This document shows positions 7,610 to 56,764 of a stretch of DNA of 64,000 nucleotides, piece by piece. The notes under the pieces were generated by a model. That model was not told the origin of the DNA. It saw only the letters and a list, made by a program, of their open reading frames with translations, and made no database searches. The stretch spans positions 1,054,001 to 1,118,000 of the forward strand of contig NZ_KB911820.1 in assembly GCF_000383675.1 (NCBI RefSeq), written 5' to 3'. Position 1 is the stretch's first letter. Each line of letters opens with the position of its first letter. The translations under genes and the position numbers were made by a program. This DNA comes from Terracoccus sp. 273MFTsu3.1 (lineage in GTDB: Bacteria > Actinomycetota > Actinomycetes > Actinomycetales > Dermatophilaceae).

Positions 7610-10084
7610 GTGATCCGCCCGCCCCTCGGCCGCGCGCGCTGGTGGGTGGCGGCGGTCCTGGCGCTCGTGGGCGTCTTCGTCCTCGGGGCGACCGCGGTGC
7701 GTTTCGCCCCGCCCGGGTCGACCGTCGCCGTCTGGTGGCCCGCGGCCGGTCTCGCGGTGTCGTTCCTGCTCGCCACCTCACGGGGTGCCCGGGCCTGGCT
7801 CTTCGTCGTGGGCGTCCTCGTCTCCAGCGCGGCCGCCAACGCCTACGGTGGGCGCCCGCCCCTCGTGGCCCTGTGCTTCGGCGTGGCCAACGCCGCCGAG
7901 GTGGCGGTCGTCTACGGGTTGCTGACCCGCGGCGGACGGCGTCCCGCGCTCGCGTCGATGGAGGATCTCTGGAACCTCCTCGCGGCGACGCTCGCCGGAG
8001 CTGTCGTCTTCGGCCTGCTCGCCGGGCTCACGGTCAGCATCGGTCTCGGGGGGCCGTTCCTCGCCACGGCGTCCGCCGTCATCGCCTCGCACGCCGCCGC
8101 CGTGCTCGTCTTCGCGCCCCTCGGCATCGCCGTGGGCACGCGGCGCACCCGCCGCCCGGGCTTCGAGGACCTCGTCCAGTGGGTCGTCGTCGTCGGGCTC
8201 ACGGCCTGGGTCTTCAACACCGGGCAGGCCCTGCCGCTCGCGTTCCTGCCGATCCCCGTCCTCGTCTGGGGCGCCCTGCGTCTCGGGCTGCGCACCGTCG
8301 CGATCCAGCTGCTCGTCGTCGGTGTCCTGGCGGTCACGCTGACGAGCATCGGCGGAGGACCCTTCGCCGCGGCGGCGCAGGTCGGCGGACTCCGGCCCGA
8401 GACGGTCGGGGCGCTCACCCAGGCCTTCCTCGTCACGGCCGCCGTCACCGCGCTCTCGCTCGCCGTCGCCTCGACGCAGCGTCGCGCGGCCCTGCTCGAC
8501 CTGCGCAGCGAGGTCGAGCTCAGCAGCGTCGTGCTCGACACCGCCGCCAGCGCCATCATCGTCGTCGACCGCGCCGGGGGCATCGCGCGCCTCAACGCGA
8601 CAGCGGCGCGGCTGCTCGGTGCGCCCGAGGCCGAGCTCGTCGGACGTCCTGCCGCAGAGGTCTTCCCCGTCGAGGACCACGACCGGGTCACGGCACAGAT
8701 GGCCGGCATCGGCGAGGGCGCCGTGCCGCTCCACGAGGAGCAGGACTGGCGCGTCCCGGGACTCGGCGTGCGTCACATCGTGTGGACCAACGCCTACCTC
8801 ACCGACGACACCGGGCACCGCACCCACCTCGTCAAGACCGGCGTCGACGTCACCGACGAGCGGGCGGCCCGGACCTTCGTCGAGGCCGTGCTCGAGGCCG
8901 CTACGGCCACCGCGATCATCGGCACCGACCTCGACGGCGTCATCACGCTCTTCAACCGCGGCGCCGAGACCGTGCTCGGCTGGCGCGCGTCCGAGGTCGT
9001 GAGCCGCAAGGACTGGTCGCTGCTGCACGACCCCGCCGAGATCGACCGCCGTGCCGAGGAGCTCGGCGTCGAGCCCGGATTCGACGTGCTCGTGAACCGG
9101 GTCCGGGGCGGCGCCGCGACCGAGACCCGTGACTGGACCTACGTCCGCAAGGACGGCACCCGTCGCACGGTGTCCCTGACGATGAGCGGCATCCGCGACG
9201 AGGGCGGGCAGCTCACGGGCTATCTCGGCGTCGCCGAGGACGTCACGAGACGCCGTCAGGTCGAGGTCACGCTGCAGGTCGCGCTCGAGCGGGAGCGCGA
9301 GGCGGTCGAGGAGCTGACCCAGCTCGACCGGACGAAGTCCGACTTCGTGTCGTCGATCAGCCACGAGCTGCGCACCCCGCTCGCCAGCGTGCTCGGCTAC
9401 ACCGAGATGCTCGAGGACGGCGCAGCCGGCGCTCTCACCGACCGCCAGCTCGAGCTCGTGGCCCGCGTCGACCGCAACGGCCGTCGCCTGCTCTCGCTCA
9501 TCGAGGACCTCCTGCTCAACTCCCGCATCGAGGCCGGACGTCTCGAGCTCACCCCGCGCCGGTGCGACCTGTCCGACGTCGTCGCCAGCGCGTGGACGTC
9601 GGTCGAGACGGTGACGGCGCAGCGCGACCTCGTGCGAGAGGTCGAGGTGTCGCCGCGACCGCTGTGGATCGAGGGCGACCCCGCCGCGCTCGAGCGGATG
9701 GTCACCAATTTGCTGTCCAACGCCGTGAAGTTCACCCCCGACGGCGGCCGGGTCGCGCTCGCGGCGCACCCCGACGACCGCCGTCCGGACACGGTCCGCC
9801 TCGTCGTCTCCGACTCGGGGATGGGCATCCCGGAGTCCGACCACGAACGCGTCTTCGCGCGGTTCTTCCGCTCGAGCGCGGCCAACGAGCGCGCCATCCA
9901 GGGCTCCGGTCTGGGACTGTCGATCGTGCGGGCCATCGCCGAGGGGCACGGCGGGTCGGTGTCGGTCGCCTCGGCCCCCGAGCAGGGATCGACGTTCACG
10001 GTGTGCCTTCCTGTCGCGGGTTCTGCCGGTCCACCCACGCAAGGGGCCTCTCGGACATATCGTGACCATCGGGACGATTCCTAG
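7610..10084 (+). CDS. MASE1-PAS-PAS hybrid-free sensor histidine kinase
   Basis: 824 residues from a GTG. The first ~290 residues are hydrophobic with about eight membrane segments, in the style of MASE1 sensory domains (TVAVWWPAAGLAVSFLLA). Two PAS domains follow (about 300-415 and 425-545), then HisKA with SHELRTPL (His585) and an HATPase domain with N box Asn700, a DSGMG G1 box near 737 and GSGLGLSIV. Autophosphorylates His585 and passes the phosphate to a response regulator, none of which is encoded nearby. A second kinase follows after 46 bases. The start is not decided by a clear ribosome-binding site. Confidence 0.88.
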   Translation: MIRPPLGRARWWVAAVLALVGVFVLGATAVRFAPPGSTVAVWWPAAGLAVSFLLATSRGARAWLFVVGVLVSSAAANAYGGRPPLVALCFGVANAAEVAVVYGLLTRGGRRPALASMEDLWNLLAATLAGAVVFGLLAGLTVSIGLGGPFLATASAVIASHAAAVLVFAPLGIAVGTRRTRRPGFEDLVQWVVVVGLTAWVFNTGQALPLAFLPIPVLVWGALRLGLRTVAIQLLVVGVLAVTLTSIGGGPFAAAAQVGGLRPETVGALTQAFLVTAAVTALSLAVASTQRRAALLDLRSEVELSSVVLDTAASAIIVVDRAGGIARLNATAARLLGAPEAELVGRPAAEVFPVEDHDRVTAQMAGIGEGAVPLHEEQDWRVPGLGVRHIVWTNAYLTDDTGHRTHLVKTGVDVTDERAARTFVEAVLEAATATAIIGTDLDGVITLFNRGAETVLGWRASEVVSRKDWSLLHDPAEIDRRAEELGVEPGFDVLVNRVRGGAATETRDWTYVRKDGTRRTVSLTMSGIRDEGGQLTGYLGVAEDVTRRRQVEVTLQVALEREREAVEELTQLDRTKSDFVSSISHELRTPLASVLGYTEMLEDGAAGALTDRQLELVARVDRNGRRLLSLIEDLLLNSRIEAGRLELTPRRCDLSDVVASAWTSVETVTAQRDLVREVEVSPRPLWIEGDPAALERMVTNLLSNAVKFTPDGGRVALAAHPDDRRPDTVRLVVSDSGMGIPESDHERVFARFFRSSAANERAIQGSGLGLSIVRAIAEGHGGSVSVASAPEQGSTFTVCLPVAGSAGPPTQGASRTYRDHRDDS

Positions 10085-10130
10085 TGGCGGCGGCCGCGAT
10101 CCAGGGGTATAAGGCAGACAAGGGGACAGG

Positions 10131-11942
10131 GTGCGCGACGGCGTGGTGTGGGAGGTGCTGGCGCTCAGTCGGCTCACCGAGCTGATGAACCGGGTCAGCG
10201 CGCAGGACGACCTGTCGATCCTCTTCGACATGGTCGTCGACGGCGCCGCCGACGTGGTCGGCTTCAAGGTGGCGGCGATCAGTCTCGTCGTGCCCTCGGG
10301 CGACATCGAGGTCGTGGCCGTGGCCGGCGACGACGACGCGCGCACCGAGCTGCTCGGCAGGCGGACGCCGCGTCCGGTCCTCGAGGCCGAGTTCGCCGTG
10401 GCCGAGCGGTGGGGGAGCCTGCGCTTCGTTCCCGCCGGCGAGCTGCCCGACGGGTCGGCCGAGGGCTGGGTGTCGGCCGACTGGACCGCGCCGACCCCTG
10501 CCGGAGACCCCGACGCGTGGAACCCCGAGGACACCCTCATCGCACCGTTCTTCGACGCCGTCGGGGAGCTGCTCGGCATCCTCTCGGTCGACCTGCCGCT
10601 CAGCGGACGGCGCCCCGACGTGACGCAACGGGCCGTGCTCGAGCTCTTCGCCAACCAGACGGGCATCGCCATCTCGGCCGCTCGCCAGCGCCACGCCCTG
10701 TCCGAGCGGGTCCGCCTCGGTGAGGCCGTGCAGACCGTGGCGCGCATCGCCCAGGAGGACCTCGACCCAGCCCGCGTCGTCGACGTGGCGGCGATGCCGA
10801 TCTCGGCCGGCCTCGCGTCGGCAGGCCTGTGGCTGCGGGCGTTCGCCGGCGAGGACGACGACGAGCGTGAGAGCGTCTCGGCACGCAGCGGGGAGCGCGT
10901 GCACACGCCGGTCTCGCTCGTCGCCATCGCCCGACGGATGGCTGCCCGCTGCTGGCGTGCCGGTGTCGTCGCGGTCGTCGGCGCCGACGGCCACGTGACG
11001 CCGGCGCGCCTCTGGAGCGACGACGACATCGCCCAGGTGCGCGTCTTCCTGTCCGACGCCGCCGCGCGCTCGCTCCTCATCGCGCCGATGGGGTCGGGGT
11101 CGAGCTGCTTCGGCTACATCGCCTGCACGCGCGGGCCCGGTGACCCGGACTGGACCGACGCCGAGGCGCAGGCCGCGCTCGAGATGGGCCGTGACCTCGG
11201 GCGGGCCATCCGCAACGCCCGGTTGTATGCCGTCGAGCGGCGGGTCGCGGCCGAGCTGCGTGAGGCCGACCGCAGCAAGACCCAGCTCTTCTCGACCGTG
11301 TCGCACGAGCTGAAGAACCCGCTCGCCTCGATCGTCGGTCACGTGGAGCTGCTCCGGCAGGAGCCGGACGCCGACGGCGACTGGTCGCTCGGGGTCATCG
11401 AGCGCAACACCGAGCGGCTGCAGAGCCTCGTCGACGACCTGCTGACGCTGTCGAGGGTCAGCGACCCCGACCGGGCCATGCCCGAGGCCGACGTCGACCT
11501 CGGCGAGGTGTCCCGTGACGTCGTCGACATGTTCCGTCCGCGCGCGGACACCCAGCAGGTCAGTCTCACCTTCGACCTCGAGGAGCGGCTGCCGCTCGTC
11601 CGGGGCAGCGCGGGGGACCTCGAGCGGGTGGTGCAGAACCTCGTCAGCAACGCGGTGAAGTTCACCCCGGCCGGCGGGAAGGTGGCGGTCTCCGTCGCGA
11701 GCCGCCGCGACCGGGTCGTGCTCGAGTGCACCGACGACGGGCTCGGCATCTCACCGGAGGACCAGGAGGGCCTCTTCACGGAGTTCTTCCGAGGCACGAA
11801 CCCGGAGACCCTGCAGGTGCCGGGCACGGGGCTCGGCCTCAGCATCGCGCAGCGCGTCGTGACGAGGCACGGCGGGCGCATCGACGTCGACTCCGAGCTC
11901 GGCCGCGGAACGAGCGTCACGCTCCTGCTGCCGGCTCTCTGA
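10131..11942 (+). CDS. GAF-domain sensor histidine kinase (soluble)
   Basis: 603 residues from a GTG preceded by AAGGGGACA. No membrane segments. Two GAF-like regions (about 15-190 and 205-350) precede HisKA with VSHELKNPL (His392) and an HATPase domain with NLVSNAVKF, DDGLGIS and GTGLGLSIA. The same fold order as the upstream kinase but cytosolic, so the pair may sense a membrane and a cytoplasmic cue for a shared, unlinked regulator. Its 3' end overlaps the convergent membrane protein gene by 26 bases. Confidence 0.88.
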   Translation: MRDGVVWEVLALSRLTELMNRVSAQDDLSILFDMVVDGAADVVGFKVAAISLVVPSGDIEVVAVAGDDDARTELLGRRTPRPVLEAEFAVAERWGSLRFVPAGELPDGSAEGWVSADWTAPTPAGDPDAWNPEDTLIAPFFDAVGELLGILSVDLPLSGRRPDVTQRAVLELFANQTGIAISAARQRHALSERVRLGEAVQTVARIAQEDLDPARVVDVAAMPISAGLASAGLWLRAFAGEDDDERESVSARSGERVHTPVSLVAIARRMAARCWRAGVVAVVGADGHVTPARLWSDDDIAQVRVFLSDAAARSLLIAPMGSGSSCFGYIACTRGPGDPDWTDAEAQAALEMGRDLGRAIRNARLYAVERRVAAELREADRSKTQLFSTVSHELKNPLASIVGHVELLRQEPDADGDWSLGVIERNTERLQSLVDDLLTLSRVSDPDRAMPEADVDLGEVSRDVVDMFRPRADTQQVSLTFDLEERLPLVRGSAGDLERVVQNLVSNAVKFTPAGGKVAVSVASRRDRVVLECTDDGLGISPEDQEGLFTEFFRGTNPETLQVPGTGLGLSIAQRVVTRHGGRIDVDSELGRGTSVTLLLPAL

Positions 11943-13104
11943 CCTCCGAGGCGGGGGTCCGGCCGGCGAGCAGGGCGACGACGAGCGCGAGCGTGGCCAC
12001 GGCGGCGAGCAGGATCGTCCAGCCGGTTCCGAGGTCGCCGGCGAAGACGACGACGAGCACGCAGACGACGGCGACCCCGATGGAGACCGGGATCGCGAGC
12101 GGCGTGCCGGCGGCGCGGTCCATCCCGCCGCGGGCGCCGTTCCACCCGGCGACCGCCAGGGACCGCACCCGGCGGGCCCCGCGCGACGGGCCGACGACGA
12201 GGGCGACGACCACCACCGCGAGGGCGACCACGACGACGACGCGCACGAGCTGGCGCAGTCCCTCGGTGACCGTGTCGATGACGGAGACCGCGGCCGCGGA
12301 GGCGCCGGGCGGCAGGCTGCTCGCCACGTGCGACCGGGCCAGCGACAGCCCCAGCACGAGCACGACGCAGGCGACGGCGGCACCGAGCCCCACGCGTACC
12401 AGGGCTCTCCGGCGGTCGCGCGCCAGGGCGACCCCGCCGGCGATGAACGCGAGCGCCAGCAACGGCAGCGCCACGCCGAGGCGCAGGGCGTTGTACGCAG
12501 TGCGTGCCGTGTCGAGGTCGCTGCTGGGGAGCAGGGGCACCGACACGGTGATCGGCGGCAGCTTGTCGACGAGCGGGACCCCCGCGGCGACGAGACGCTG
12601 CTCGATGGGCTCGACGAGGTTGCCGATGTCGATGCTGACGTCGGTCCCGTTGTCGACGATGGCGCCGTCGGGTGACCGCGAGAGCACGGCGACGAGCTGG
12701 GCGTGCGAGACCTGGTTGGCGGCGACCCAGACCGTGGCGAACTGGTCGCTCCCGACGACGGCGGTGACGACACGGCGCACGACCTGCTCGACCTGGGCCG
12801 CGAGGGGGGCTTTGAGCAGCCCGAGTGCTCGTGCCGCGACCGGTCGGCCTCCGGCCTCGAGCGCCTCGAGGGCTCGGTCGACGAGGTGCTGGTCGCTGAT
12901 GGCGACCAGGACGCGTGCCGTCGCACGGTCCTCGATGAACGCGGTCACGGCCGGGTCGGTGGCGAGCGGTGTCACGGTCTCGACCCAGTTGTCGGTGTCG
13001 GTCACCGTCGTGCGCAGCCACGTCGCGGTCGCCCCGACCGGCACGAGCACGACGCCGATGACGAGGAGCACGGCGGCCAGCACCGAGCGCAGTCGTGCGG
13101 GCAT
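11917..13104 (-). CDS. conserved actinobacterial integral membrane protein
   Basis: 395 residues. One N-terminal membrane segment (about 8-28), a ~170-residue extracytoplasmic domain beginning TTVTDTDNWVETVTPLATD, then four or five membrane helices at about 205-225, 240-260, 290-312 and 335-385. This layout is seen in many uncharacterised actinobacterial proteins; I do not know a function. The C-terminus overlaps the end of the GAF kinase gene on the other strand. Confidence 0.75.
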   Translation of the reverse strand: MPARLRSVLAAVLLVIGVVLVPVGATATWLRTTVTDTDNWVETVTPLATDPAVTAFIEDRATARVLVAISDQHLVDRALEALEAGGRPVAARALGLLKAPLAAQVEQVVRRVVTAVVGSDQFATVWVAANQVSHAQLVAVLSRSPDGAIVDNGTDVSIDIGNLVEPIEQRLVAAGVPLVDKLPPITVSVPLLPSSDLDTARTAYNALRLGVALPLLALAFIAGGVALARDRRRALVRVGLGAAVACVVLVLGLSLARSHVASSLPPGASAAAVSVIDTVTEGLRQLVRVVVVVALAVVVVALVVGPSRGARRVRSLAVAGWNGARGGMDRAAGTPLAIPVSIGVAVVCVLVVVFAGDLGTGWTILLAAVATLALVVALLAGRTPASEVREPAAGA

Positions 13105-13199
13105 CTCGACCTCCGGGTGTCACGGGGACAGGCCTGCGACCTGTCCTCCGAGCCTCCCGCCGCGCGGGGGCCGCACGCATCCCCCGATGCGGGTGAGCC

Positions 13200-13586
13200 T
13201 CAGGCGTGCCGCTTGGCCGGCTGCGCCAGCTGGGGGGCCACCGACCGCCCACGCAGCAGCAGGAGCCCGCCGACGACGATGCAGACCACCTCGGCGATCG
13301 CGGCCGTCCAGACCGAGAGGCCTGACCAGACGGTGTGCACGCCGAGCAGTCCGACGGTGGACGCGATGATGAACGCCCCGAGCGTCGCGGCCCCGAAGCC
13401 GGCGGTCAGGAACGCGGGGACCCAGTGCTCCCAACGAAGCAGCATGATCGCGATGACCACGCCGGCCACGACGTTGATGAGGAACATCGGCCCCACGCTC
13501 TGGTTGCGCACCCCGTCGAACCACAGGTAGAGGTGCACGCCGGCGGAGACGAGCAACGCCACCGCTCCCACGCCTCGGAGTCTCAT
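13200..13586 (-). CDS. small four-helix membrane protein
   Basis: 128 residues, almost all membrane helix: segments at about 5-22, 32-50, 58-78 and 90-112, with WFDGVRNQSVGPMFLINVVAG between the first two. The ATG at 13586 follows CAGGAG at normal spacing. Similar small proteins are annotated only as hypothetical. Lies between two larger membrane-protein genes on the same strand, with ~95-base gaps on both sides, so co-transcription is possible but not shown. Confidence 0.75.
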   Translation of the reverse strand: MRLRGVGAVALLVSAGVHLYLWFDGVRNQSVGPMFLINVVAGVVIAIMLLRWEHWVPAFLTAGFGAATLGAFIIASTVGLLGVHTVWSGLSVWTAAIAEVVCIVVGGLLLLRGRSVAPQLAQPAKRHA

Positions 13587-13683
13587 GATGCGCTCCTGTC
13601 GTCCGGGTCGCGCCGCGGCGTCCCGTTGGCGTCGCGGTGTTGGACTTCCTTTCCCCTGAAGACGCCTCGTCGTGGGCCCCGGT

Positions 13684-15354
13684 TCAGCCGCTGGCCGCGG
13701 GCCCGTAGGCGGTGAGGAAGCGGTCGCGGAAGCGGTCCATCGGCCAGACCGGGGCGGAGGGGCCGGGCCGCAGGCCGTCCTGCCAGCCCCACGAGGAGAT
13801 GCGCGCGAGCACCGCCGGGTCGCGGGTGACGATGCTGACGGGGACGTCGTGCCCGGCGTGCTCGCCCGAGACGATGCTGACCGGCTGGTGGTCGCCGAGC
13901 ACGAGGACGACGAGGTCGTCGTCATGGGTCGCCCGGAGGAACGACACGACGCTGTCGAGGGAGTACGCGACCGTCTGGCCGTATGCCGCCCGCACCCTCT
14001 CGGGGCTGCTCCAGACCACGTCGCGTGGCGTCGCGAGCCCCGCCTGGGCGAGGTAGGGGGAGCCGTCGCCGATCGTCGCCCAGTCGAGCAGTCGCGGCAG
14101 CGGCGCCCAGGGGACGTGGCTCGTCACGAGGTCGATCTCGGCCATGACGGGCGGCCGTCGACCGGGTGGGTGGCGCTGCAGCTCGAGCCGGTCGAAGGCC
14201 GACAGGGTGTACTGGTCCGGCATCGGGGCGTAGCCGAAGCCGGGGCCGGCATAGCCCAGGGTGCGTGCGTCGTAGACGGTGTCGTAGCCGTAGAAGGCCT
14301 TGCCCTCGGGCCAGTCGTGGCGGTTGGCCGGGATGACGTCGACGGTGCGCCACCCGGCGCGGGCGAAGGCCCCGGCGAGGGTGAGGCGGTGGTTGGCGCC
14401 CGTCGCGGTGTCGAGGAGCTGGTCGTAGCGCTGCTGGCTGCTCACCCAGAGTCCGGACTGGAGGGTGGAGTGGGCCAGCCAGCTGATCCCACCGAAGGTC
14501 GGGGACGTGAGCCAGGCGCTGCGCGTCAGGTAGCCGGAGGCCTGCAGCCCGTTCGTCCCGGCCGTGAGTGCCCGTGCCACGTCGGGGCTCTCGTCGACGG
14601 CGACCATGCCGTAGCTCTCGACGAAGACGACGACGACGTCCTTGCCCCGCAACGCGGTCAGCAGGCCGCCCGGCGCGGTGTCGCGGTACGGGTCGACGGC
14701 GATCTGCGCGGCGAAGACGTCCTCGTCGTGAAGGCCGTCGCGCACCGACGTGAACTCCCGGCCGGCGAGGGCCGCCGTGCTCGACGAGGCGGCGGGCAGG
14801 CCGCCCGTGACGCTGAGTCCGAGCGAGGCGCAGACGCCCCAGGCGACCGCCCCGGCCACGAGGGCGCGCACCGCTCCGGTCCGGTGGCGTTCGACGACCC
14901 GGCCGACCCGTTGCACGGCCAGGGGGGTCAGCACGACGATGCCGAGGAGGAACAGCCCCGCCGCGACGACGGCCAGCACGGCCGTCGCCGGACCGGTCGA
15001 GTCGCCGAGGAGGTCGGTGGCCGACCCGGCGTAGCGCCAGTCGGTGAGCGGGTTGAACGTCCGGTAGAGCGTGGCGAGGAAGGCCGCGTCGAGGACCCGG
15101 ACGACGAGGAGGACGCCGAGGCCGAGGCCGACCGCGATCGTGAAGGACCGCGCGGCCACGCCGCGCAGGAGCAGGAGCCCGGCCACGAGGACGAGCGCCT
15201 CGAGGGGGATCCGGAGCAGCGCCAGCGGTGTCGGCGACCAGCCGACCGCGGGGTTGGGGGCGACGAGCGCGACCCAGACGAGCAGGACGGCGAGAGTGGT
15301 GAGGACGTGGCCGGCGACGCGGCGGCCGGTCCTGGCCCGGGTCTGCGTCGTCAC
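13684..15354 (-). CDS. sulfatase/LTA-synthase-like membrane phosphatase or phosphotransferase
   Basis: 556 residues from a GTG that overlaps the upstream stop (GTGA). Five N-terminal membrane helices (to about residue 190) are followed by an extracellular alkaline-phosphatase-superfamily domain: VVFVESYG near 240, a Thr/Ser-rich TFGGISWLAHST likely holding the nucleophile, and VLGDHQPVS near 500 giving the Asp-His metal ligands. Relatives cleave or transfer phospho- or sulfo-groups on cell-surface lipids and polymers. Coupling to a CDP-alcohol phosphatidyltransferase suggests it modifies a lipid head group outside the cell; substrate unknown. Confidence 0.78.
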   Translation of the reverse strand: MTTQTRARTGRRVAGHVLTTLAVLLVWVALVAPNPAVGWSPTPLALLRIPLEALVLVAGLLLLRGVAARSFTIAVGLGLGVLLVVRVLDAAFLATLYRTFNPLTDWRYAGSATDLLGDSTGPATAVLAVVAAGLFLLGIVVLTPLAVQRVGRVVERHRTGAVRALVAGAVAWGVCASLGLSVTGGLPAASSSTAALAGREFTSVRDGLHDEDVFAAQIAVDPYRDTAPGGLLTALRGKDVVVVFVESYGMVAVDESPDVARALTAGTNGLQASGYLTRSAWLTSPTFGGISWLAHSTLQSGLWVSSQQRYDQLLDTATGANHRLTLAGAFARAGWRTVDVIPANRHDWPEGKAFYGYDTVYDARTLGYAGPGFGYAPMPDQYTLSAFDRLELQRHPPGRRPPVMAEIDLVTSHVPWAPLPRLLDWATIGDGSPYLAQAGLATPRDVVWSSPERVRAAYGQTVAYSLDSVVSFLRATHDDDLVVLVLGDHQPVSIVSGEHAGHDVPVSIVTRDPAVLARISSWGWQDGLRPGPSAPVWPMDRFRDRFLTAYGPAASG

Positions 15355-16133
15355 GGCAGCACGCGCGCGTCGACGGCCGTCGGCTCGAGCACCGGCCAGG
15401 GAGCGAGGGCCTCGACCTCGTGGCGGCGGGACGCCGACATCCGGCGCAGCGTGAGCACCTCGGTGCCGAACGAGAGGACGAGCAGCGCGAGCCCGGCCGC
15501 CACGGCGACCGACGCCGCCACGACGGGCAGGACGCCGGCGGCGGCCACCGTGAGGACGATGCCCTGGTAGGCCGCGATCACCTTGCGCCACATGCGGGCC
15601 GGGACCTGTCCGCGGAGCCACGGCGCCCATCGGGCAGCGAGCGCGACGAGCAGCAGCAGGTAGCGGGCGACCCCCACGCCGAGCACCCACCACCCGAGGT
15701 CACGGGTGACGGCCACGCTGAGGACGAGGATGAGGAAGGCGTCGGTCTCCATGTCGAAGCGCGCGCCGAGCGGGTGGACGGTCCCGGTGCGGCGCGCGAC
15801 CCGGCCGTCCACTGCATCGAGGACGAGAGCCACGGAGGCGAGGGCCACGAGGACGCCGGTCGGCTCGTCGGTGCCCGCCACGGTGTCGGCGACGAGGGCC
15901 GCGACGCCGCACACGAGCACCGCCCTCGACAAGGTGACTCGGTCGGCGGGCAGGAGGCGCCGGCGCGAGGCCCGGACGAGCCCGAGCGTGAGCAGGGCGC
16001 AGAGGGCGACCCCCGAGGCCAGGCCGACGATCCAGCCGGCAGCGCCGAGGCCGGTCACCCGACCCAGGACGGCGAGCAGGGTCAGCACGCCGACGAGCCC
16101 GACGACCGGGCCGTGAGGGGTCACGTGACGCAC
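15351..16133 (-). CDS. CDP-alcohol phosphatidyltransferase family membrane protein
   Basis: 260 residues if started at the GTG at 16133, which has GGAGG five bases upstream; a GTG at 16145 is possible but lacks a good site. Contains the full family signature: Asp and Asp-Gly in DAVDG, AR in RVARR, then Gly and two Asp in GARFDMETD (about residues 110-135). Six to seven membrane helices. The family moves a phospho-alcohol between CMP and an acceptor, making phospholipids or related molecules. Divergently placed opposite the GTP-derived pathway genes from 16218, which suggests a shared product, by inference. Confidence 0.82.
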   Translation of the reverse strand: MRHVTPHGPVVGLVGVLTLLAVLGRVTGLGAAGWIVGLASGVALCALLTLGLVRASRRRLLPADRVTLSRAVLVCGVAALVADTVAGTDEPTGVLVALASVALVLDAVDGRVARRTGTVHPLGARFDMETDAFLILVLSVAVTRDLGWWVLGVGVARYLLLLVALAARWAPWLRGQVPARMWRKVIAAYQGIVLTVAAAGVLPVVAASVAVAAGLALLVLSFGTEVLTLRRMSASRRHEVEALAPWPVLEPTAVDARVLP

Positions 16134-16217
16134 TGGCGCCTCCACCGGGCTTGAGAGGTTTCACCCAAGGACGCCGTCGTCACCGCCGGAGTTCACGGGC
16201 AGCCCTAGTCTGGACCC

Positions 16218-17210
16218 GTGTCCTCCGAAGCGCGGGCGTTCTGGGTGGTCGAGCCCGGCAGGGGCGAGATCCGGCCGGTCACCGTGCCCGCTCCCCGGTC
16301 GGGCGAGGTGCTCGTCCGGGCCCTGCACTCGGGCGTGAGCCGCGGCACCGAGACGCTCGTCTTCCGGGGGCAGGTCCCCGAGGACCAGTACGCCGTCATG
16401 CGCGCCCCGCACCAGGAGGGGGACTTCCCCGGTCCGGTGAAGTACGGCTACCTCGGGGTCGGGGTCGTCGAGGAGGGCCCGACGGGGCTCGTCGGGAGGA
16501 CGGTCTTCTGCCTGCACCCGCACCAGACGGCGTACGTCGTCCCCGTCGGGTCGGTCGTCGTCGTCCCCGACGACGTGCCTGCGCGGCGGGCCGTGCTCGC
16601 CGGCACGGTCGAGACCGCCGTCAACGCGCTGTGGGACGCGGCCCCGCGGCTCGGTGACCGGGTCGCTGTCGTCGGTGCGGGCATGGTCGGGTGCTGCGTC
16701 GCGCGCCTGCTCGCCGGCATCCCGGGGTGCCGGGTGACCCTCGTCGACGTGGACCCGTCACGGGAGGCGTTCGCGGGACCGCTCGGGGTCGGCTTCGCGC
16801 GACCGACCGACCTCGCCGACGCACGCGGGGACCACGACCTCGTCGTCCACACGAGCGCCACGGGGGCCGGGCTCCAGCTCTCCCTCGACCTCCTCGCACC
16901 GGAGGCGACGGTGCTCGACCTCAGCTGGTACGGCGACGCGCGGGTCGAGCTGTCGCTCGGTGGGTCGTTCCACTCGTCGCGACTGCGGATCCGAGCCAGT
17001 CAGGTGGGTTCCGTTGCGGCAGCGAGGCGCTCGCGGTACACGTACGCCGAGCGGCTGGCGCTCGCGCTCGACCTCCTGCGCGACTCGGCCTTCGACGCCC
17101 TGCTGACCGGCGACTCACCCTTCGAGGAGCTGCCCACGCTCATGCCTCGCCTCGCGGACGGCTCCCTACCGGCCGTCTGCCACACGATCTCCTACCGACC
17201 CACCCACTGA
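16218..17210 (+). CDS. medium-chain dehydrogenase, BchC-like, without catalytic zinc ligands
   Basis: 330 residues from a GTG. GroES-like N-terminal half and a Rossmann half with VVGAGMVGCCVARLL (about 150-165). The segment SGVSRGTETLVFRG resembles BchC-type dehydrogenases. The Cys of the catalytic zinc site is Ser here and the usual GHE motif is replaced by KYGYLG, so zinc-dependent alcohol oxidation in the classical way is unlikely. First gene of a six-gene co-directional run; the next ATG lies 12 bases after its stop. Probably an NAD(P)-dependent redox step in that pathway. Confidence 0.78.
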   Translation: MSSEARAFWVVEPGRGEIRPVTVPAPRSGEVLVRALHSGVSRGTETLVFRGQVPEDQYAVMRAPHQEGDFPGPVKYGYLGVGVVEEGPTGLVGRTVFCLHPHQTAYVVPVGSVVVVPDDVPARRAVLAGTVETAVNALWDAAPRLGDRVAVVGAGMVGCCVARLLAGIPGCRVTLVDVDPSREAFAGPLGVGFARPTDLADARGDHDLVVHTSATGAGLQLSLDLLAPEATVLDLSWYGDARVELSLGGSFHSSRLRIRASQVGSVAAARRSRYTYAERLALALDLLRDSAFDALLTGDSPFEELPTLMPRLADGSLPAVCHTISYRPTH

Positions 17211-17222
17211 AGCGGGGAGCCG

Positions 17223-17621
17223 ATGTTCAGCGTGACCGTCCGGGACCACATGATGATCGCGCACAGCTTCCGGGGGGAGGTGTTCGGTCCGGCGCAGCGG
17301 TTGCACGGTGCGACGTTCGTCGTCGACGTGACCTTCCGCGGGCCCGAGCTCGACGACGACGACATCCTCGTCGACATCGGTCTCGCGACCCAGCACGTCC
17401 GCGAGGTCGTCGCTGCCCTGGGCTATCGCAACCTCGACGACGAGCCGGACTTCGCGGGGGTCAACACCTCGACCGAGGTGCTGGCCCGTACCGTCGCGGA
17501 GCGGATCGCGGGTCGCGTGCGCGCCGGTGACCTTGGCGGCGCCACCGACCGGGTGACCGCGCTCGCCGTGACCCTCCACGAGTCGCACGTCGCCTGGGCG
17601 AGCTACGAGTGCGAGCTCTGA
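17223..17621 (+). CDS. 6-pyruvoyl-tetrahydropterin synthase/QueD-fold protein with altered active site
   Basis: 132 residues, the family length. AHSF near residue 13 supplies the first zinc-binding His and RLHGATF near 28 the second, but canonical QueD has HGH: the third zinc ligand is Ala here. The nucleophilic Cys that precedes HGH by four residues is also replaced (Ala), and the LDH segment (Asp-His of the relay) appears as [18 protein letters not shown] matches the family helix and a late Glu (LHESH) survives. So the fold is clear but normal PTPS/QueD chemistry is doubtful. Overlaps the glycosyltransferase start by 13 bases. Confidence 0.78.
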
Positions 17622-18670
17622 GCGAGGTCCACGCCGTCGTCCCGGCCGGGATCGACGACCCCCTGCTCCCCAGCGGGGGGAACACCTACGACCGCAGGGT
17701 GCTCGACGGCCTGCGTTCCCTCGGGTGGCAGGCGAGCGAACACCCGGTGCCCGGGTCGTGGCCACGGCCGGACGCGGCAGCGACGGCCCGCCTGGCAGAG
17801 GTCGTCGCGGCCGTCCCCACAGGGTCGGTGCTGCTCGTCGACGGGCTCGTCGCATCGGCGGCGGACACCGTCCTCGTGCCTGCGGCGGACCGCATCCGCC
17901 TCGTCGTCGTGGTCCACCTGCCGCTCGGGGCGGCAGACCCGAGCGCGGCCGCGGTGGAGGGCGCGGTGCTGGCCGTGGCCGCGGCCGTCGTGACGACGAG
18001 TGGGTGGACCCGGGACGTCCTGCTCGACGCATACGGCCTCGCCCCCGCGGCCGTGCACGTCGCCCGGCCGGGGGTCGACCGGGCGCCTGTGGCGCCACGC
18101 GGTCCCGGCGGTGGGCGGCTGATCTGCGTCGGCGCGGTGACCGCGCTCAAGGGGCAGGCCGACCTCCTCGCGGCGCTCACACTCGTGGAGGACCTCCCGT
18201 GGTCGTGCGTCCTCGTCGGCGCCCTGACGCGCGAGCCGGACGTCGTCGACGGGCTGCGTCGGCAGCTCGCATCGGCAGGCCTCGGCGACCGCGCGCACCT
18301 CGTCGGCCCGCGCGTCGGCGCGGACCTCGAGCGGACGTATGCGGCCGCCGACCTCCTCGTGCTGCCCTCCCACGTCGAGACGTACGGGATGGTCGTGACC
18401 GAGGCACTCGCCCGCGGCATCCCGGTGCTCGCGACCGACGTCGGTGGCGTCCGCGAGGCGTTCGGGCCGACGGGCGAGGAGCTCCCCGGGCTGCTGGTGC
18501 CTGCAGCGAGCCCCGAGGCGCTCGCGGCTGCGCTCCGGTCGTGGCTCACCGACGGGGCCCTGCGGGACCGGCTGCGCCGGAACGCCCTGGCACGACGGGA
18601 AACCCTGTCATCGTGGTCGGAGACCACAGGACACGTGTCGGCCGTGCTCGAGAGGGTAGGGGGTCGCTGA
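17609..18670 (+). CDS. GT4-family glycosyltransferase
   Basis: 353 residues from a GTG inside the end of the PTPS-like gene. GT-B fold: [17 protein letters not shown] opens the C-terminal donor-binding half and [14 protein letters not shown] carries the EX7E motif that grips the nucleotide sugar. The N-terminal half has [15 protein letters not shown], a common GT4 acceptor-side pattern. It probably adds a sugar to the locus product in the cytosol. The long overlap with the preceding gene implies coupled translation. Confidence 0.85.
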
Positions 18671-18752
18671 ACCCGATCGTGGAGCCGGACGTCGTCACCA
18701 TCAGGGTCCCGGGCGGATTCTCGGCAGATCCCGGGCAGAAAGGGCGGAGCAG

Positions 18753-19736
18753 ATGCAGCGCGACCGGGCCTGGCTGCGCCCCCTCGCGGGCCTCGTGATC
18801 CTCGGCGTCCTCGTGTGGCGCGTCGGCGGAGGCGCCTTCGTCGACGGCCTGCGCCACGTCGACGCCCGTTCGGTCGCTGCGGCGGCCGCCATCGCCGTGG
18901 TCACGACCATCTGCGGCGCGTGGCGGTGGGTCCTTGTGGCCAGGGGCCTCGGGTCTGAGCTCTCGCTGCGCGCAGCGGTCGCCGCGTGCTACCGGTCGCA
19001 GTTCCTCAACGTGACCCTGCCCGGAGGCGTGCTCGGCGACGTGCACCGGGGCGTGCGACACGGCCGTGACGGCGGCGACGTCGGCCGCGGTGTGCGGTCG
19101 GTCGTGTGGGAGCGCTCGGCCGGCCAGGTCGTCCTCCTCGGTCTGACGCTGGGTGCCGTGCTGCTGCTCCCGTCGAGACTCCAGCCGGTCGGATCCCCTG
19201 TGGCCACCACGGTTCTCGTCGCCGTGACCGCAGCCCTCCTGGGGGTCGTGGTGACACGACGGCTCGGCTCGGGTCGCGCACCTGCCGTGCGACCCGGACC
19301 TCTCGCGTGGGTCTCGCAGGTCCTGCGGGTCGCGGCGGGCGACGTGCGTCACGGACTGCTGGGACGGCATACGTGGCCGGGAGTCGTCGTGGTGTCGGCG
19401 CTCGTCGTCGTCGGGCACGTCGCGACCTTCGTGCTCGCCGCCCGCAGTGCGGGGGTGGAGGCGCCCGTGGGTGACCTTGTGCCGCTCGCGCTCGTCGTCC
19501 TCGTGGCGATGGCGCTGCCGCTCAACGTCGCCGGCTGGGGCCCGCGTGAAGGCGTGGCGGCCTGGGTCTTCGGCATGTCCGGACTCGGCGTCGCTGGGGG
19601 AGTGGCGACCGCCGTCGTCTACGGCGTGATGTCGTTCGTCGCTGCCCTGCCGGGCGCGGCGCTGCTCGTCGTGTCGCGGCGCGGAGGCTCCCGCACCCCG
19701 ACCGAGCCGACCCCGGAAGGAGCCGTCCGTGGCTGA
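18753..19736 (+). CDS. MprF/AglD-type flippase-like membrane protein (UPF0104)
   Basis: 327 residues with seven to eight membrane helices. SQFLNVTLPGGVLGDVHRG near 85-105 and the following WERSAGQ match the conserved motifs of the lysylphosphatidylglycerol-synthase membrane domain, which moves lipids across the bilayer; no synthase domain is attached. GGAG precedes the ATG. An 82-base gap before it contains no gene. In this setting it most simply exports a glycosylated or lipid-linked product. It overlaps the RibD_C gene by eight bases. Confidence 0.82.
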   Translation: MQRDRAWLRPLAGLVILGVLVWRVGGGAFVDGLRHVDARSVAAAAAIAVVTTICGAWRWVLVARGLGSELSLRAAVAACYRSQFLNVTLPGGVLGDVHRGVRHGRDGGDVGRGVRSVVWERSAGQVVLLGLTLGAVLLLPSRLQPVGSPVATTVLVAVTAALLGVVVTRRLGSGRAPAVRPGPLAWVSQVLRVAAGDVRHGLLGRHTWPGVVVVSALVVVGHVATFVLAARSAGVEAPVGDLVPLALVVLVAMALPLNVAGWGPREGVAAWVFGMSGLGVAGGVATAVVYGVMSFVAALPGAALLVVSRRGGSRTPTEPTPEGAVRG

Positions 19737-20424
19737 CCGTCCCTACACCCTGCTCAGCTGTGGCATGTCGATCGACGGCTACCTCAGCGCCGGCACCTCG
19801 GCCCGGCTCATGCTGTCCAACGACGCCGACTTCGACCGGGTCGACGGAGAGCGTGCCGCGAGCGACGCGATCCTCGTGGGTGCCAGCACGATCCGCAACG
19901 ACAACCCGCGTCTGCTCGTCCGATCACCCGAGCGTCGGGCCGCACGGGTGGCCCGCGGTCTCACGCCGTCGCCGACGAAGGTGACGGTCACGAGACACGC
20001 CGAGCTCGACTGCGCCGCAAGCTTCTTCGCGGCCGACGGTGCGGACAAGATCGTCTACTGCCCCAGCGACGTCGTGCCAGAGGCCCGCGGACGGCTCGGT
20101 GCGGCCGCGGCCGTCGTCGACGCCGGCCGTCCCGCGACGATGCGGCGCGTCTGCGAGGACCTCGGTGACCGCGGGGTGCAGCGGCTCATGGTCGAGGGCG
20201 GCGGCACCGTGCACACGCAGCTGCTCACCGACGACCTCGCCGACGAGCTCCAGCTCGTCGTGGCGCCCTTCTTCGTCGGTGACTCGACGGCGTGCCGGTT
20301 CGTCGGGGACGGACGCTTTCCCTGGAACGCCGGCCGCCGGGCGACCCTCGCCGAGGTGCGTCAGATCGGCGACGTGGTCCTGCTGAGGTATGCGTTGTCG
20401 CCGCGTTTCCGGGAGAGCGCGTGA
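19729..20424 (+). CDS. RibD C-terminal-type reductase (dihydrofolate-reductase fold)
   Basis: 231 residues from a GTG six bases after GGAAGGAG. LLSCGMSIDGYLSAG, VGASTIRNDNPRLLVR and LMVEGGGTVHTQLL are RibD_C signatures. In riboflavin synthesis this domain reduces the ribosylamino side chain of the pyrimidine to ribityl with NADPH; here it is stand-alone, without the deaminase domain, as in fungal and archaeal enzymes that act directly on the GTP cyclohydrolase II product. Its partner lies immediately downstream (GTGA overlap), so the two probably act one after the other. Confidence 0.85.
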   Translation: MADRPYTLLSCGMSIDGYLSAGTSARLMLSNDADFDRVDGERAASDAILVGASTIRNDNPRLLVRSPERRAARVARGLTPSPTKVTVTRHAELDCAASFFAADGADKIVYCPSDVVPEARGRLGAAAAVVDAGRPATMRRVCEDLGDRGVQRLMVEGGGTVHTQLLTDDLADELQLVVAPFFVGDSTACRFVGDGRFPWNAGRRATLAEVRQIGDVVLLRYALSPRFRESA

Positions 20425-21107
20425 TCCCGGGAGCGCCGGGTCGCGCCCCGGGGGCTGCGCCCGGACTCCCACCGGCCCGCATCCGGACCCACGTGCTCGT
20501 GCCGGTCACCTTCGCCGACGGCTTCGCGACGACGGCGCGTGTCTTCACCTTCGAGGGGCTGGTGGACGGCCGCGAGCACCTCGCGCTCGGTCTCGGGGAC
20601 CGCTCGGCGGCACCCGGACCGGGAGCGTGTGACCGGGATCCGACGCCGACGCGACTGCACAGCGAGTGCCTGACCGGTGACGTCTTCGGCAGCGGGAGGT
20701 GCGACTGCGGGGCCCAGCTGCGCGAGTCGGTCGAGCGCCTCGACGCGAGCGGCGGGTTCCTGCTCTACCTGCGGCAGGAGGGGCGCGGCATCGGGCTCTA
20801 TCCCAAGCTCGACGCCTACGTGCTCCAGGACGCGGGGCTCGACACCTACGAGGCGAACGTCGCCCTCGGCTACGGCGAGGACGAGCGCGACTACACCGTG
20901 GCCGCCCAGATGCTCGGGGCGCTGGGCGTCAGCCGGATCGCCCTGCTCAGCAACAACCCCGACAAGGCCGAGCAGCTCCGGGCGCTCGGGGTCACGGTGG
21001 CCCGTCGCGTCCCGACCGCTCTCCACCTGTCCGACGCGAACGCCCACTACCTCGCGACCAAGGCCGTGCGCGGCGCACACACCCTCGACCTGCACGTCCA
21101 GCCCTGA
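20421..21107 (+). CDS. ribA: GTP cyclohydrolase II
   Basis: 228 residues, stand-alone (no DHBP synthase domain). HSECLTGDVFGSGRCDCG supplies the three zinc cysteines; RQEGRGIGL holds the catalytic and GTP-binding residues; the Tyr equivalent to E. coli Tyr105 is kept in LDAYVLQDAG, so full ring opening and deformylation is expected. SNNPDKAEQLRALGV and the C-terminal YLATKA complete the family. An extra ~20-residue Pro/Gly-rich N-terminus and an acidic insertion after LGLGDR are unusual. Last gene of the run, not near other riboflavin genes, suggesting a specialised rather than housekeeping copy. Confidence 0.9.
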   Translation: MIPGAPGRAPGAAPGLPPARIRTHVLVPVTFADGFATTARVFTFEGLVDGREHLALGLGDRSAAPGPGACDRDPTPTRLHSECLTGDVFGSGRCDCGAQLRESVERLDASGGFLLYLRQEGRGIGLYPKLDAYVLQDAGLDTYEANVALGYGEDERDYTVAAQMLGALGVSRIALLSNNPDKAEQLRALGVTVARRVPTALHLSDANAHYLATKAVRGAHTLDLHVQP

Positions 21108-21161
21108 TTGACCGCGGCCGCCGGCGGTGCATCATGGGTCCGTGGACGACGGGACTTTCGG

Positions 21162-22618
21162 ATGACGCCGGGGCAGCGCCTCTCGGTGACGGTCAACGGC
21201 ACCGAGCGCGGTCTCGCGGGCACTGACCCTGCCACCAACGCCCTCGACTGGCTGCGGGGGCAGGGGCTCACCGGGGCCAAGGAGGGGTGCGCCGAGGGCG
21301 AGTGCGGCGCCTGCGCGGTCCTCGTGGCCCGCCCGGACGGTGGGTCGGGCACCGAGTGGACCGCCGTCAACGCCTGTCTCGTGCCGGCTGCCTCGTTGGA
21401 CGGACAGGAGGTCGTCACCGCCGAGGGGCTGGGGACGCCGGACCACCTGCACCCCGTACAGCATGAGATGGCGGTGCGAGGTGGGTCGCAGTGCGGCTAC
21501 TGCACGCCCGGCTTCGTCTGCTCGATGGCTGCCGAGTACTACCGCGCCGACCGGCAGGACGACACTGCCCGCGTGGGCAGCGACGCGCACGAGTCGGGGC
21601 CGAACGGTTTCCGGCTCGGGGCGCTGTCCGGCAACCTGTGCCGGTGCACCGGCTACCGGCCCATCCGTGACGCAGCCTTCGCGCTCGCGTCCCCGGCGGC
21701 CGACGACGTGCTCGCCTTGCGGCGGTCGGATGCGCCGCGACCCCCGGTCGGGACCCGGCTCTCGGGGGACACCGGCACGTATGCCCGTGCTGCCGACCTC
21801 GACGAGGCGCTCGACCTGCTCACGGACCATCCGGACGCGGTGGTCGTCGCGGGCTCGACCGACTGGGGCGTCGACGTGAGCCTCCGCGGCGCCCGGGCGC
21901 GGTTCGTCATCGGCATCGACCGTCTGCCCGAGCTGCGCCGCGTGGAGGTCGGTGACGATGCCGTCGAGATCGGCGCCGCGTTGACCCTCACCGAGCTGGA
22001 ACGCGAGCTGGCGGGACGGATCCCCCTGCTCGACCAGGTGTTCCCCCAGTTCGCTTCCCGGCTCATCCGCAACGGTGCGACCCTCGGCGGAAACGTGGGC
22101 ACGGCCTCGCCGATCGGTGACCTCCCGCCCGCGCTGCTCGCGCTCGAGGCCGTCGTGGTACTCGCGAGCCCGGACGGCGACCGGCAGGTGCCGCTCGCCG
22201 ACTACTGGACCGGGTACCGGCAGAGCGTGCGTCGCCCCGACGAGCTCATCCGTGCGGTGCGGATCCCGCTGCCGCTCAGCCCGACCACCGCCTTCCACAA
22301 GATCGCCAAGCGGCGCTACGACGACATCTCCAGCGTCGCCGTCGCCGTGGCCCTCGACGTCGTCGACGGCTCCGTGCGTCGGGCGCGCATCGGTCTCGGT
22401 GGCGTGGCGGCCACACCCGTCAGGGCGCTCGCCACCGAGGCGGCCCTGGAAGGTCGGGCCTGGACGACGTCGACGGTGCAGGCCGCAGCCGAGGTGATGC
22501 GGGGGGAAGGTACCCCTCTCGACGACCACCGCGCCAGCGCGGCCTACCGCAGCGCGGTGCTCGGCACCTCGCTCCTCCGCGTGCTGGCGGACGAGCAGCC
22601 CGAGCGGCGGGTGGACGC

Positions 22619-22622
<4 letters not shown>
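21162..22622 (+). CDS. xdhA: xanthine dehydrogenase, iron-sulfur/FAD subunit
   Basis: 486 residues. N-terminal 2Fe-2S domain with CAEGECGAC (Cys43, 48, 51), second 2Fe-2S domain with GSQCGYC and NLCRCTGYRP, then a CODH-type FAD domain with VVAGSTDWGVD and RNGATLGGNVGTASPIGD. Passes electrons from the molybdenum centre to FAD and NAD. The ATG at 21162 has no clear ribosome-binding site; a TTG at 21108 would only add 18 atypical residues. Starts 54 bases after the GTP cyclohydrolase II gene and overlaps xdhB at ATGA. Confidence 0.92.
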
Positions 22623-25123
<2,501 letters not shown>

Positions 25124-55327: not shown

Positions 55328-55384
55328 GACCTCAGCATGGCACCGCCCGGCGGATGCAGGACGGCGATCGCCGAACCCGCCCCC

Positions 55385-55478
55385 GTCCCACTCGAGTGAG
55401 CGCGTAGTCCCACTCGAGTGAGCGCTGGGTCCCACTCGAGTGAGCGCTGGGTCCCACTCGAGTGAGCGCCTCGTCCCA
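55385..55478 (+). repeat. tandem array of a 22-bp palindromic repeat, four copies
   Basis: Units of 19 conserved bases, GTCCCACTCGAGTGAGCGC, at 55385, 55407, 55429 and 55451, each followed by three variable bases, then a broken fifth start at 55473. The core CACTCGAGTG is a 10-bp palindrome. Lies between the F420-type gene and the 3' end of the first methyltransferase gene. Confidence 0.95.
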
Positions 55479-56642: not shown

Positions 56643-56764
56643 CGGGCCACTCGAGTGGGGCTGGGCGCTCACTCGAGTGGGGCGGGGCGCTCACTCGAGT
56701 GAGGTTGGGCGCTCACTCGACGGTCGAGTGAGCGCTTCGTCCCCGTCGAGTGAGCGCTTCGTCC
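56643..56764. repeat. second array of the 22-bp palindromic repeat, with internal inversion
   Basis: Copies in reverse orientation at 56643, 56665 and 56687, a half copy at 56709-56720, then half copies in forward orientation at 56724-56735 and 56746-56757, all on 22-bp spacing. At the switch point GCGCTCACTCGA and TCGAGTGAGCGC form a perfect 12-bp inverted repeat with a 3-base loop (56709-56735). Fills the gap between the sigma-like gene and the second methyltransferase gene. Confidence 0.92.

Follow-up and report, generated by a model that had tools for sequence, protein, structure and literature searches.

Gene content and layout of the locus

The locus was examined within a stretch of 64,000 nucleotides from Terracoccus sp. 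273MFTsu3.1, referred to here as the window. The ORF list of the window contained all eight reading frames that an earlier note had described between positions 13684 and 21107. They are given below; "best loci" denotes the best 80 of at least 556 stretches encoding a PTPS relative in one genome collection.

13684..15354, minus strand: membrane protein with an LtaP/alkaline-phosphatase-superfamily-like domain, accessory (ORF; profile match to 4uop, E = 1.7e-4; 15/80 best loci)
15351..16145, minus strand: CDP-alcohol phosphatidyltransferase (PF01066, E = 6.6e-12; 75/80 best loci)
16146..16217, no strand: divergent intergenic region of 72 bases, presumed promoter region (position between divergent genes)
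16218..17210, plus strand: BchC-like medium-chain dehydrogenase/reductase (MDR) (TIGR03366, E = 1.6e-9, and TIGR01202, E = 3.5e-9, both below cut-off; predicted MDR fold; 80/80 best loci)
17223..17621, plus strand: degenerate PTPS homologue, SCO6650 orthologue (PF01242, E = 5.2e-24; 3d7j, E = 9.3e-58)
17609..18670, plus strand: GT4 glycosyltransferase (PF00534, Glycos_transf_1, E = 4.5e-30; 80/80 best loci)
18753..19736, plus strand: LPG_synthase_TM (UPF0104) flippase-like membrane protein (PF03706, E = 3.5e-30; 75/80 best loci)
19729..20424, plus strand: stand-alone RibD_C reductase (PF01872, E = 2.4e-34)
20421..21107, plus strand: GTP cyclohydrolase II (GCHII), second genomic copy, catalytic Tyr kept (PF00925, E = 2.4e-52)

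The overlaps reported previously were correct: GTGA at 15351-15354, 13 bases at 17609-17621, eight bases at 19729-19736 and GTGA at 20421-20424. The GT4 and flippase genes did not overlap, as the best flippase start by reading was the ATG at 18753, 82 bases past the GT4 stop. The likely starts of the outermost minus-strand gene and of the GCHII gene were GTG at 15354 and GTG at 20421, respectively. The PF03706 score was taken on the longer frame 18666-19736, and the PF00925 score on the frame scanned from 20388.

The first plus-strand gene product is predicted to have an MDR fold; the mean pLDDT of its model was 75.6, and Foldseek returned general MDR enzymes only among the 50 matches listed. 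The MDR models matched, BchC (TIGR01202) among them, scored below the NCBIfam cut-offs. At the positions where the catalytic zinc motif of MDR dehydrogenases is expected, the conserved segments read SGVSRGTE and KYGYL. The PTPS homologue was orthologous to SCO6650, with the same neighbours in Streptomyces. Profile alignment with rat PTPS revealed HGAT in place of HGHN and Ala in place of Cys, and the protein scored 42.4 against the QueD cut-off of 89.25. An active PTPS or QueD was rejected on these grounds, as the catalytic Cys and the HGH zinc motif were not kept and the cut-off was missed. The PDB deposit of SCO6650 is titled uncharacterised protein, and SCO6650 is said to lack both zinc and PTPS activity. 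The GT4 protein matched the MshA structure 3c48 (E = 1.1e-15) and 7qsg, a D-inositol 3-phosphate glycosyltransferase (E = 1.2e-12); it also matched the tetrahydrobiopterin glucosyltransferase 5zer (E = 4.5e-4).

The outermost minus-strand gene had been called a sulfatase-like membrane enzyme. It had no Pfam match at 0.001, and at a looser limit the best match was an unrelated model (E = 0.01). The Pfam sulfatase model (PF00884) was not matched, and only the family profile gave the LtaP-type match, to the lipoteichoic acid primase 4uop. Its structure model had a mean pLDDT of 38.5 and was unusable for the fold.

Conservation of the gene set among relatives

The MDR, PTPS and GT4 genes stood together in all of the 80 best-scoring loci, from at least five genera, and their clustering is beyond chance. 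GCHII was present in 74/80, and MDR, PTPS, GT4, flippase and GCHII occurred jointly in 73/80. All six plus-strand families were found in 28/80 best loci when the window-type RibD_C was required and in 36/80 with any RibD_C. The plus-strand genes are therefore not rarely together, which had been set beforehand as a check on the claim. A single unit with divergent genes on either side of an intergenic region was likewise conserved; the LtaP-like gene, which the earlier note had counted in, was seldom part of it. As this gene occurred in only 15 of the 80 and the CDP-alcohol transferase was absent from five, processing outside the cell is no general part of the pathway, contrary to what had been claimed for the surface enzyme; we propose that the LtaP-like enzyme acts outside the cell as an accessory in certain lineages. 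One full-length Micromonospora locus (L122) gave no flippase match, and five Micromonospora loci gave none to the CDP-alcohol transferase. The flippase, the CDP-alcohol transferase and the LtaP-like protein are tied to the GTP-derived part by position only.

The earlier note had mentioned a comparable Streptomyces set around a GCHII homologue. Such a set exists around the SCO6650 orthologues (MDR-PTPS-GT4-methyltransferase-flippase-creatininase-GCHII); the creatininase and methyltransferase genes are additions in relatives, and the window has neither. In a remote family (f18), GT4 accompanied MDR-PTPS in 22/23 loci, and the remaining locus has about 1 kb after PTPS. The f18 PTPS kept the HGH zinc motif in 23/23. 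The window flippase and CDP-alcohol transferase had no match in 5/5 f18 loci tested, and GCHII had none in 22/23 f18 loci, several of which lie on short contigs, nor in the G008 locus. In one f18 genome, MDR-PTPS-GT4-MT is preceded by GCHII and RibD_C genes that overlap.

The window and two relatives (L055 and L056, 90-91% identical) have molybdenum hydroxylase genes directly 3' of GCHII. A more distant three-gene form was observed in 3/46 Streptomyces loci (L074, L082 and L084) and in L214 and L218. As these genes are missing from the other loci, they are at most accessory.

A literature search recognised no description of the cluster, with subscription journals mostly beyond its reach.

GTP cyclohydrolase II classes and the RibD_C reductase

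GCHII was present in 83 of 95 locus rows, all of which fell into two classes. In the first (32/83), the catalytic Tyr was kept, creatininase was absent and RibD_C stood alone; in the second (51/83), Met, His or Cys replaced the Tyr and a creatininase-family gene was present in all 51. Further Streptomyces loci with GCHII were of the second class in 21/21 cases, some from genomes already counted. In the GCHII tree, a separate GCHII of Streptomyces joined the Tyr copies in one lineage (support 99), and the Met-His-Cys copies formed another (supports 90 and 94). The association between Tyr and creatininase needs one change on this tree and thus represents one evolutionary event, not 83. The zinc Cys residues, Tyr105 and Arg128 have known roles in the E. 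coli enzyme, and alignment to 2bz0 revealed that the window GCHII keeps all of them, its Tyr aligning to Tyr105. It is predicted to be a normal Tyr-type enzyme with the residues for full activity.

In 4/4 Streptomyces genomes, no creatininase other than that of the locus was found, and the window genome (G000) yielded none. One such protein (L086) matched PF02633 (E = 5.1e-63); it scored under the ArfB cut-off (35.4 vs 180 bits) and was nearer to MftE, also below the cut-off (136.1 vs 172). BrbF, of the creatininase family, is proven to deformylate the formyl intermediate of this GTP route (PMC9478397). A GCHII named SCO6655 exists in S. coelicolor. It presumably lies in the same cluster as SCO6650, and it reportedly makes the formyl compound through Met120. 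The Met/His/Cys-type GCHII would end its reaction at the formyl compound. The comparison suggests that one GCHII residue predicts the need for a partner deformylase. Two different modules, Tyr-type GCHII and Met-His-Cys GCHII plus creatininase, appear to lead to a common early intermediate.

The best NCBIfam match of the window RibD_C was TIGR01508 (E = 1.5e-35), below the equivalog cut-off (122.4 vs 186.45 bits); in the PDB, it matched 5xv5 (E = 2.3e-30) and 6p8c, a diaminoribosylaminopyrimidinone phosphate reductase (E = 1e-19). Its stand-alone nature was borne out, as two RibD-type deaminase probes had no match at 1e-6 in 120 PTPS loci, the window included. RibD_C was absent from the locus in 34/42 complete Streptomyces loci and 3/3 Actinomadura loci. 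Where a Streptomyces locus contained a different RibD_C (RDC2), the genome had no close window-type RibD_C elsewhere (7/7 searched), whereas such a copy was present in 7/7 Streptomyces and 3/3 Actinomadura without RDC2, in G408 as two matches in different frames. Among 150 Streptomyces genomes, 55 had both PTPS and window-type RibD_C, 12 PTPS only, 20 RibD_C only and 63 neither (Fisher p = 1.1e-12, ignoring descent). The prediction that PTPS-only genomes carry RDC2 held in 9/9 (3 of the 12 were cut by contig ends), compared with 0/12 controls. This co-occurrence lost most of its force, because the RDC2 pattern needs only two changes on the locus tree (two independent pairs, p = 0.5) and because the RibD_C elsewhere had a deaminase fused to it or next to it in 50/51 stretches, the exception being a partial second copy (L207). 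Complementarity of RibD_C was dropped as main support for these reasons. The 50 stretches with a deaminase include 16/16 examined of the 20 RibD_C-only genomes. Tyr-type GCHII stood beside the RibD_C elsewhere in 17/20 genomes with PTPS and 2/16 without; these counts likewise ignore descent and were set aside as main support. RibD_C seems to have been recruited to the core several times, from apparently three or more lineages.

Proposed pathway and known systems

We interpret the locus as a biosynthetic cluster for a GTP-derived, glycosylated small molecule, with a probability of roughly 0.55. In the best-supported step, GCHII would open GTP to a diaminopyrimidine nucleotide (APy/DARoPP), in the window through a normal Tyr-type enzyme and in Streptomyces and Actinomadura through a Met/His/Cys-type GCHII with a creatininase-family deformylase. 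Where the locus has RibD_C, the gene content supports a second step in which the ribosyl chain would be reduced to ribityl without deamination. The degenerate PTPS and the MDR may then act on the pyrimidine, or on a pteridine derived from it, by rearrangement and by reduction or oxidation. Finally, GT4 would add a sugar, a methyl group would be added in most relatives, and the UPF0104 protein and CDP-alcohol transferase may move or anchor the product in the membrane. The product is probably exported; its identity, its lipid linkage and the late steps are inferred. In favour of this reading are the conserved gene set, the two GCHII classes and their lineages, the distribution of the creatininase and the activity of BrbF, the several RibD_C lineages at one core, the f18 genome with GCHII and RibD_C, the lack of deaminase matches and the separate riboflavin operon. 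Against it count the Streptomyces and Actinomadura loci that lack RibD_C, the missing GCHII matches in f18 and G008, the single event behind the Tyr/creatininase association, the creatininase scores below both cut-offs, the purely positional tie of the flippase, CDP-alcohol transferase and LtaP-like protein, and the lack of flippase and CDP-alcohol transferase matches in f18. More tentatively, the product could be a widespread glycoside, associated with the membrane, whose core is a ribityl-diaminopyrimidine or an 8-ribityl-type pteridine; the first riboflavin steps would be diverted before deamination, a T-fold PTPS homologue would perform a new reaction, and unrelated GCHII, deformylase and RibD_C modules would have supplied the precursor several times.

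We consider it unlikely that the core instead yields a pterin bearing a methyl group and a sugar, as biopterin-glucoside pathways do, with RibD_C, of DHFR-like fold, reducing a dihydropterin and not a ribosyl group. PTPS, reductase, GT4 and methyltransferase together presumably resemble biopterin glycoside synthesis, and FolB lies beside the core in 22/23 f18 loci, where PTPS retains its zinc motif; FolB is a possible pathway enzyme. However, it was the sole copy in 5/5 f18 genomes tested and may thus serve folate, and it had no match in any of 89 actinomycete loci searched. Similarly, the match of GT4 to 5zer was far exceeded by those to 3c48 and 7qsg, and RibD_C, which weakly matched DHFR 1cz3 (E = 8.6e-4), was closest to ribosylaminopyrimidine reductases. 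Molybdenum hydroxylases, a class able to act on pterins, are encoded directly after GCHII in the window and two lineages of relatives. GCHII does not itself make pterins.

Two neighbouring modules, one for a GTP-derived cofactor (MDR, PTPS, RibD_C and GCHII) and one, unrelated to it, of glycolipid or lipoteichoic type (GT4, flippase, CDP-alcohol transferase and LtaP-like protein), are rather improbable. The latter four presumably resemble glycolipid anchor assembly, consistent with the LtaP profile match and with the Micromonospora loci in which the flippase or CDP-alcohol transferase was not found. GT4, however, adjoins and overlaps PTPS in the window, stays with MDR-PTPS in every best locus and is kept in nearly all f18 loci, although the five tested had no flippase or CDP-alcohol transferase match. 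An extra riboflavin or flavin-secretion operon is highly improbable. GCHII and RibD_C are riboflavin enzymes, but the window genome has an operon elsewhere with RibD, a RibE-like gene and RibBA, and the GCHII at C4:82961 lies in an operon with RibD. The locus GCHII is thus not a sole copy serving riboflavin, and this objection named in the earlier note falls. Additionally, the deaminase probes found nothing, neither RibE nor RibH was recognised among the gene families common to at least 50 loci, and PTPS, MDR and GT4 are constant.

Given the number of stretches that encode a PTPS relative, the picture of actinobacteria may lack a common natural product or cofactor. Many soil actinobacteria retain these genes as a cluster, and names can now be put to the first chemical steps of the proposed pathway, which makes them testable.

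Among known systems, toxoflavin-type pathways (GCHII and RibD) divert riboflavin-type early steps to another product; in contrast, the present locus has no deaminase match and contains a glycosyltransferase, a flippase-like protein and PTPS. Pathways for biopterin and other pterin glycosides likewise combine a PTPS-type protein, a reductase and a GT4 transferase, but here GCHII is the supply, PTPS lacks the Cys and one zinc His, and GT4 is not closest to 5zer. The archaeal riboflavin route (GCHIII, ArfB and a RibD_C-type reductase) resembles the window in its stand-alone reductase of the same family. A formyl intermediate and a separate deformylase are described for the early archaeal route and bacterial BrbF (PMC9478397); the opening enzyme here is instead homologous to GCHII, with PTPS, MDR and GT4 as the genes that come later. 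The counterpart in S. coelicolor is the SCO6650-SCO6655 region (3d7j). Compared with SCO6650-type Streptomyces loci, the window contains Tyr-type GCHII, RibD_C and the LtaP-like gene and lacks creatininase and methyltransferase. The structure of SCO6650 is solved. For its neighbours, the comparison yields an order of reactions that can be tested, and it names the intermediate at which the two modules seem to converge and the strains that differ.

Gene content and conservation of the locus

The eight open reading frames (ORFs) of the locus (window 13684-21107), their gene order and the four overlaps reported in the earlier note were all present in the window sequence. Pfam matches above the cut-off were obtained for CDP-OH_P_transf, PTPS, Glycos_transf_1 (GT4), LPG_synthase_TM (flippase), RibD_C and GTP_cyclohydro2 (GTP cyclohydrolase II, GCHII). 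The dehydrogenase/reductase (MDR) gene had Pfam matches below the cut-off only, and NCBIfam listed the BchC model for it far below cut-off. The 'sulfatase' gene showed no Pfam match at 0.001, and its family profile matched the lipoteichoic acid primase 4uop (1.7e-4). The window PTPS was found to be an orthologue of SCO6650 of Streptomyces coelicolor (3d7j, E 9.3e-58). In 9/9 aligned PTPS sequences, HGA replaces HGH and Glu120 is kept; we interpret Glu120 as the residue responsible for binding the 2-amino-4-oxo ring. A review (PMC5041015) describes the function of PTPS-V, a type to which the window family may belong, as unclear.

A PTPS-family scan of genome contigs yielded at least 556 relatives, of which the best-scoring 80 loci were retained and therefore represent the nearest relatives. 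These came from Streptomyces (46), Micromonospora (18), Actinoplanes/Paractinoplanes (7), Terrabacter (3) and Actinomadura (3), together with one Intrasporangiaceae MAG and two other MAGs; Terrabacter was the nearest, with a PTPS 96% identical. Among these best 80 of at least 556, MDR, PTPS and GT4 were matched in all 80, CDP-alcohol transferase and flippase each in 75, GCHII and methyltransferase each in 74, creatininase in 45, window-type RibD_C in 31 and the LtaP-like gene in 15. The earlier note had named rare co-occurrence of the six plus-strand genes as grounds to refute its pathway. In the same 80, the set of MDR, PTPS, GT4, flippase and GCHII was complete in 73, and all six families occurred jointly in 28 with window-type RibD_C or 36 with any RibD_C. 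Seven loci missed one of the five: L078, L088, L096, L110 and L128 continue for roughly 1 to 4 kb beyond PTPS, and the gaps in L058 (GCHII) and L122 (flippase) were not accounted for by length. Blind ORF clustering recovered, in at least 50 loci, GT4 (merged with methyltransferase), PTPS, MDR, GCHII, CDP-alcohol transferase and flippase, together with a creatininase-centred group.

Several further features were also observed. Molybdenum hydroxylase (xanthine-dehydrogenase-type) genes lie directly after GCHII in the window (21108-25123) and in two Terrabacter loci, and a few Streptomyces carry such a set after GCHII in a different arrangement (L082:15773-19394); they possibly provide an accessory oxidation step. 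Two uncharacterised minus-strand ORFs without Pfam match adjoin the cluster (window 11917-13589) and were matched in 3/94 and 4/94 loci, all Terrabacter or near kin. Tandem 22-base repeats with CTCGAGTG-containing units occur at two sites close to each other (window 55384-55478 and 56648-56764).

Two GCHII modules

The window's own genome (4.9 Mb, 18 contigs) contains two GCHII genes, the locus copy and one at C4:82961, whose operon also carries RibD, a RibE-like gene and RibBA (RibE and RibB identified by reading translations; RibH was not identified). Since this other copy sits in a RibD-bearing operon, the locus GCHII is an extra copy, contrary to the refuting case named in the earlier note, a sole copy serving riboflavin synthesis. 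A search of this genome for a creatininase-family gene found none.

We scored the residue aligned with E. coli Tyr105 in 95 rows (the window and 94 loci; some rows represent one species, e.g., L041 and L070), of which 12 without GCHII were dropped. Tyr was present in 32/83 rows (the window's entry set by hand), all with window-type RibD_C and none with creatininase; Met (48), His (2) or Cys (1) was present in 51/83, all with creatininase. Among 25 further Streptomyces loci, some from genomes already counted among the 94, GCHII lay within the stretch in 21, and 21/21 were Met-type with creatininase. In the tree, Tyr copies grouped with a second, separate Streptomyces GCHII (SH-aLRT 99), and Met/His/Cys copies formed a group of their own (90 and 94, not starred). 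Because the tree separates these groups and the residue change was counted once on it, entire modules have been exchanged, and the 83 rows do not count as independent events. SCO6655, a GCHII of S. coelicolor, reportedly halts at the formyl compound owing to the Met at this position. By NCBIfam scores, the locus creatininase was closer to MftE than to ArfB, below both cut-offs. Removal of a formyl group is shown for BrbF, a creatininase-family protein of Sinorhizobium (PMC9478397).

RibD_C lineages and remote relatives

The window RibD_C was nearest to ribosylaminopyrimidine reductases: TIGR01508 (below cut-off), 6p8c and the archaeal 5xv5. The tree separated three RibD_C groups among PTPS loci: the window type, nested in a group that also contains Streptomyces copies linked to a deaminase (support 99); the Streptomyces type RDC2 (99); and the type of f18, a remote family in the same phylum (97). 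Housekeeping RibD rows fell between the latter two (89 to 93, not starred). In one Streptomyces locus (L222), window-type RibD_C directly follows PTPS. The absence of RibD_C from 34/42 complete Streptomyces loci and 3/3 Actinomadura loci counts against a RibD_C step. Sampled genomes of such loci have RibD_C elsewhere, but carrying or adjoining a deaminase, and the in-locus/elsewhere pattern comprises two independent changes only. Two RibD-type deaminase probes found no match in 120 PTPS loci. Separately, a Streptomyces mini-locus encodes a RibD_C-deaminase fusion in inverted order by Pfam (L172:6942-8069, minus strand), close to a Tyr-type GCHII (8779-9549, plus strand).

In 23 examined f18 loci, RibD_C, MDR and PTPS were each present in 23, GT4, FolB and acyltransferase each in 22, and GCHII in one; PTPS segments had HGH in 23/23, with Ala at the position of the PTPS Cys. 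The one locus with GCHII (L273) has a Tyr-type GCHII and RibD_C with a four-base overlap (9216-10582), followed by MDR, PTPS, GT4 and methyltransferase; the tree left the origin of this GCHII unsure, and it perhaps joined the same core separately. In another f18 locus, a single 641-residue ORF combines GT4 and methyltransferase (L054:10422-12347). G008, a genome from the same order as the window, carries MDR, PTPS and GT4, but neither GCHII nor RibD_C was matched at this locus; reading revealed an ORF for a TadA-like deaminase some 2.7 kb away from PTPS (L048:12878-13384). Elsewhere, G008 encodes a fusion of GCHII with an acyl-CoA-dehydrogenase-type flavoprotein domain (L170:7819-9690); a RibD_C gene lies immediately upstream of this fusion gene, and an aminotransferase gene is nearby.

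Pathway reading and relation to known clusters

The two different modules appear to yield one and the same diaminopyrimidine. Because of this apparent convergence and the several RibD_C lineages beside one core, the first two steps are the best supported part of the proposed pathway. A pterin product is a live alternative, for which the f18 relatives are the chief reason; FolB is single-copy in 5/5 f18 genomes and thus may simply be the folate gene. Beyond the first two steps, we infer the reactions of PTPS and MDR, the GT4 sugar, and the anchoring, flipping or export of the product.

The Streptomyces form of the cluster is already known, in pieces, and the literature searched yielded no product for it; nor did it yield a description of the window form, the module swap or the remote FolB-linked relatives. 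We regard the window locus as a form of a known orphan cluster.
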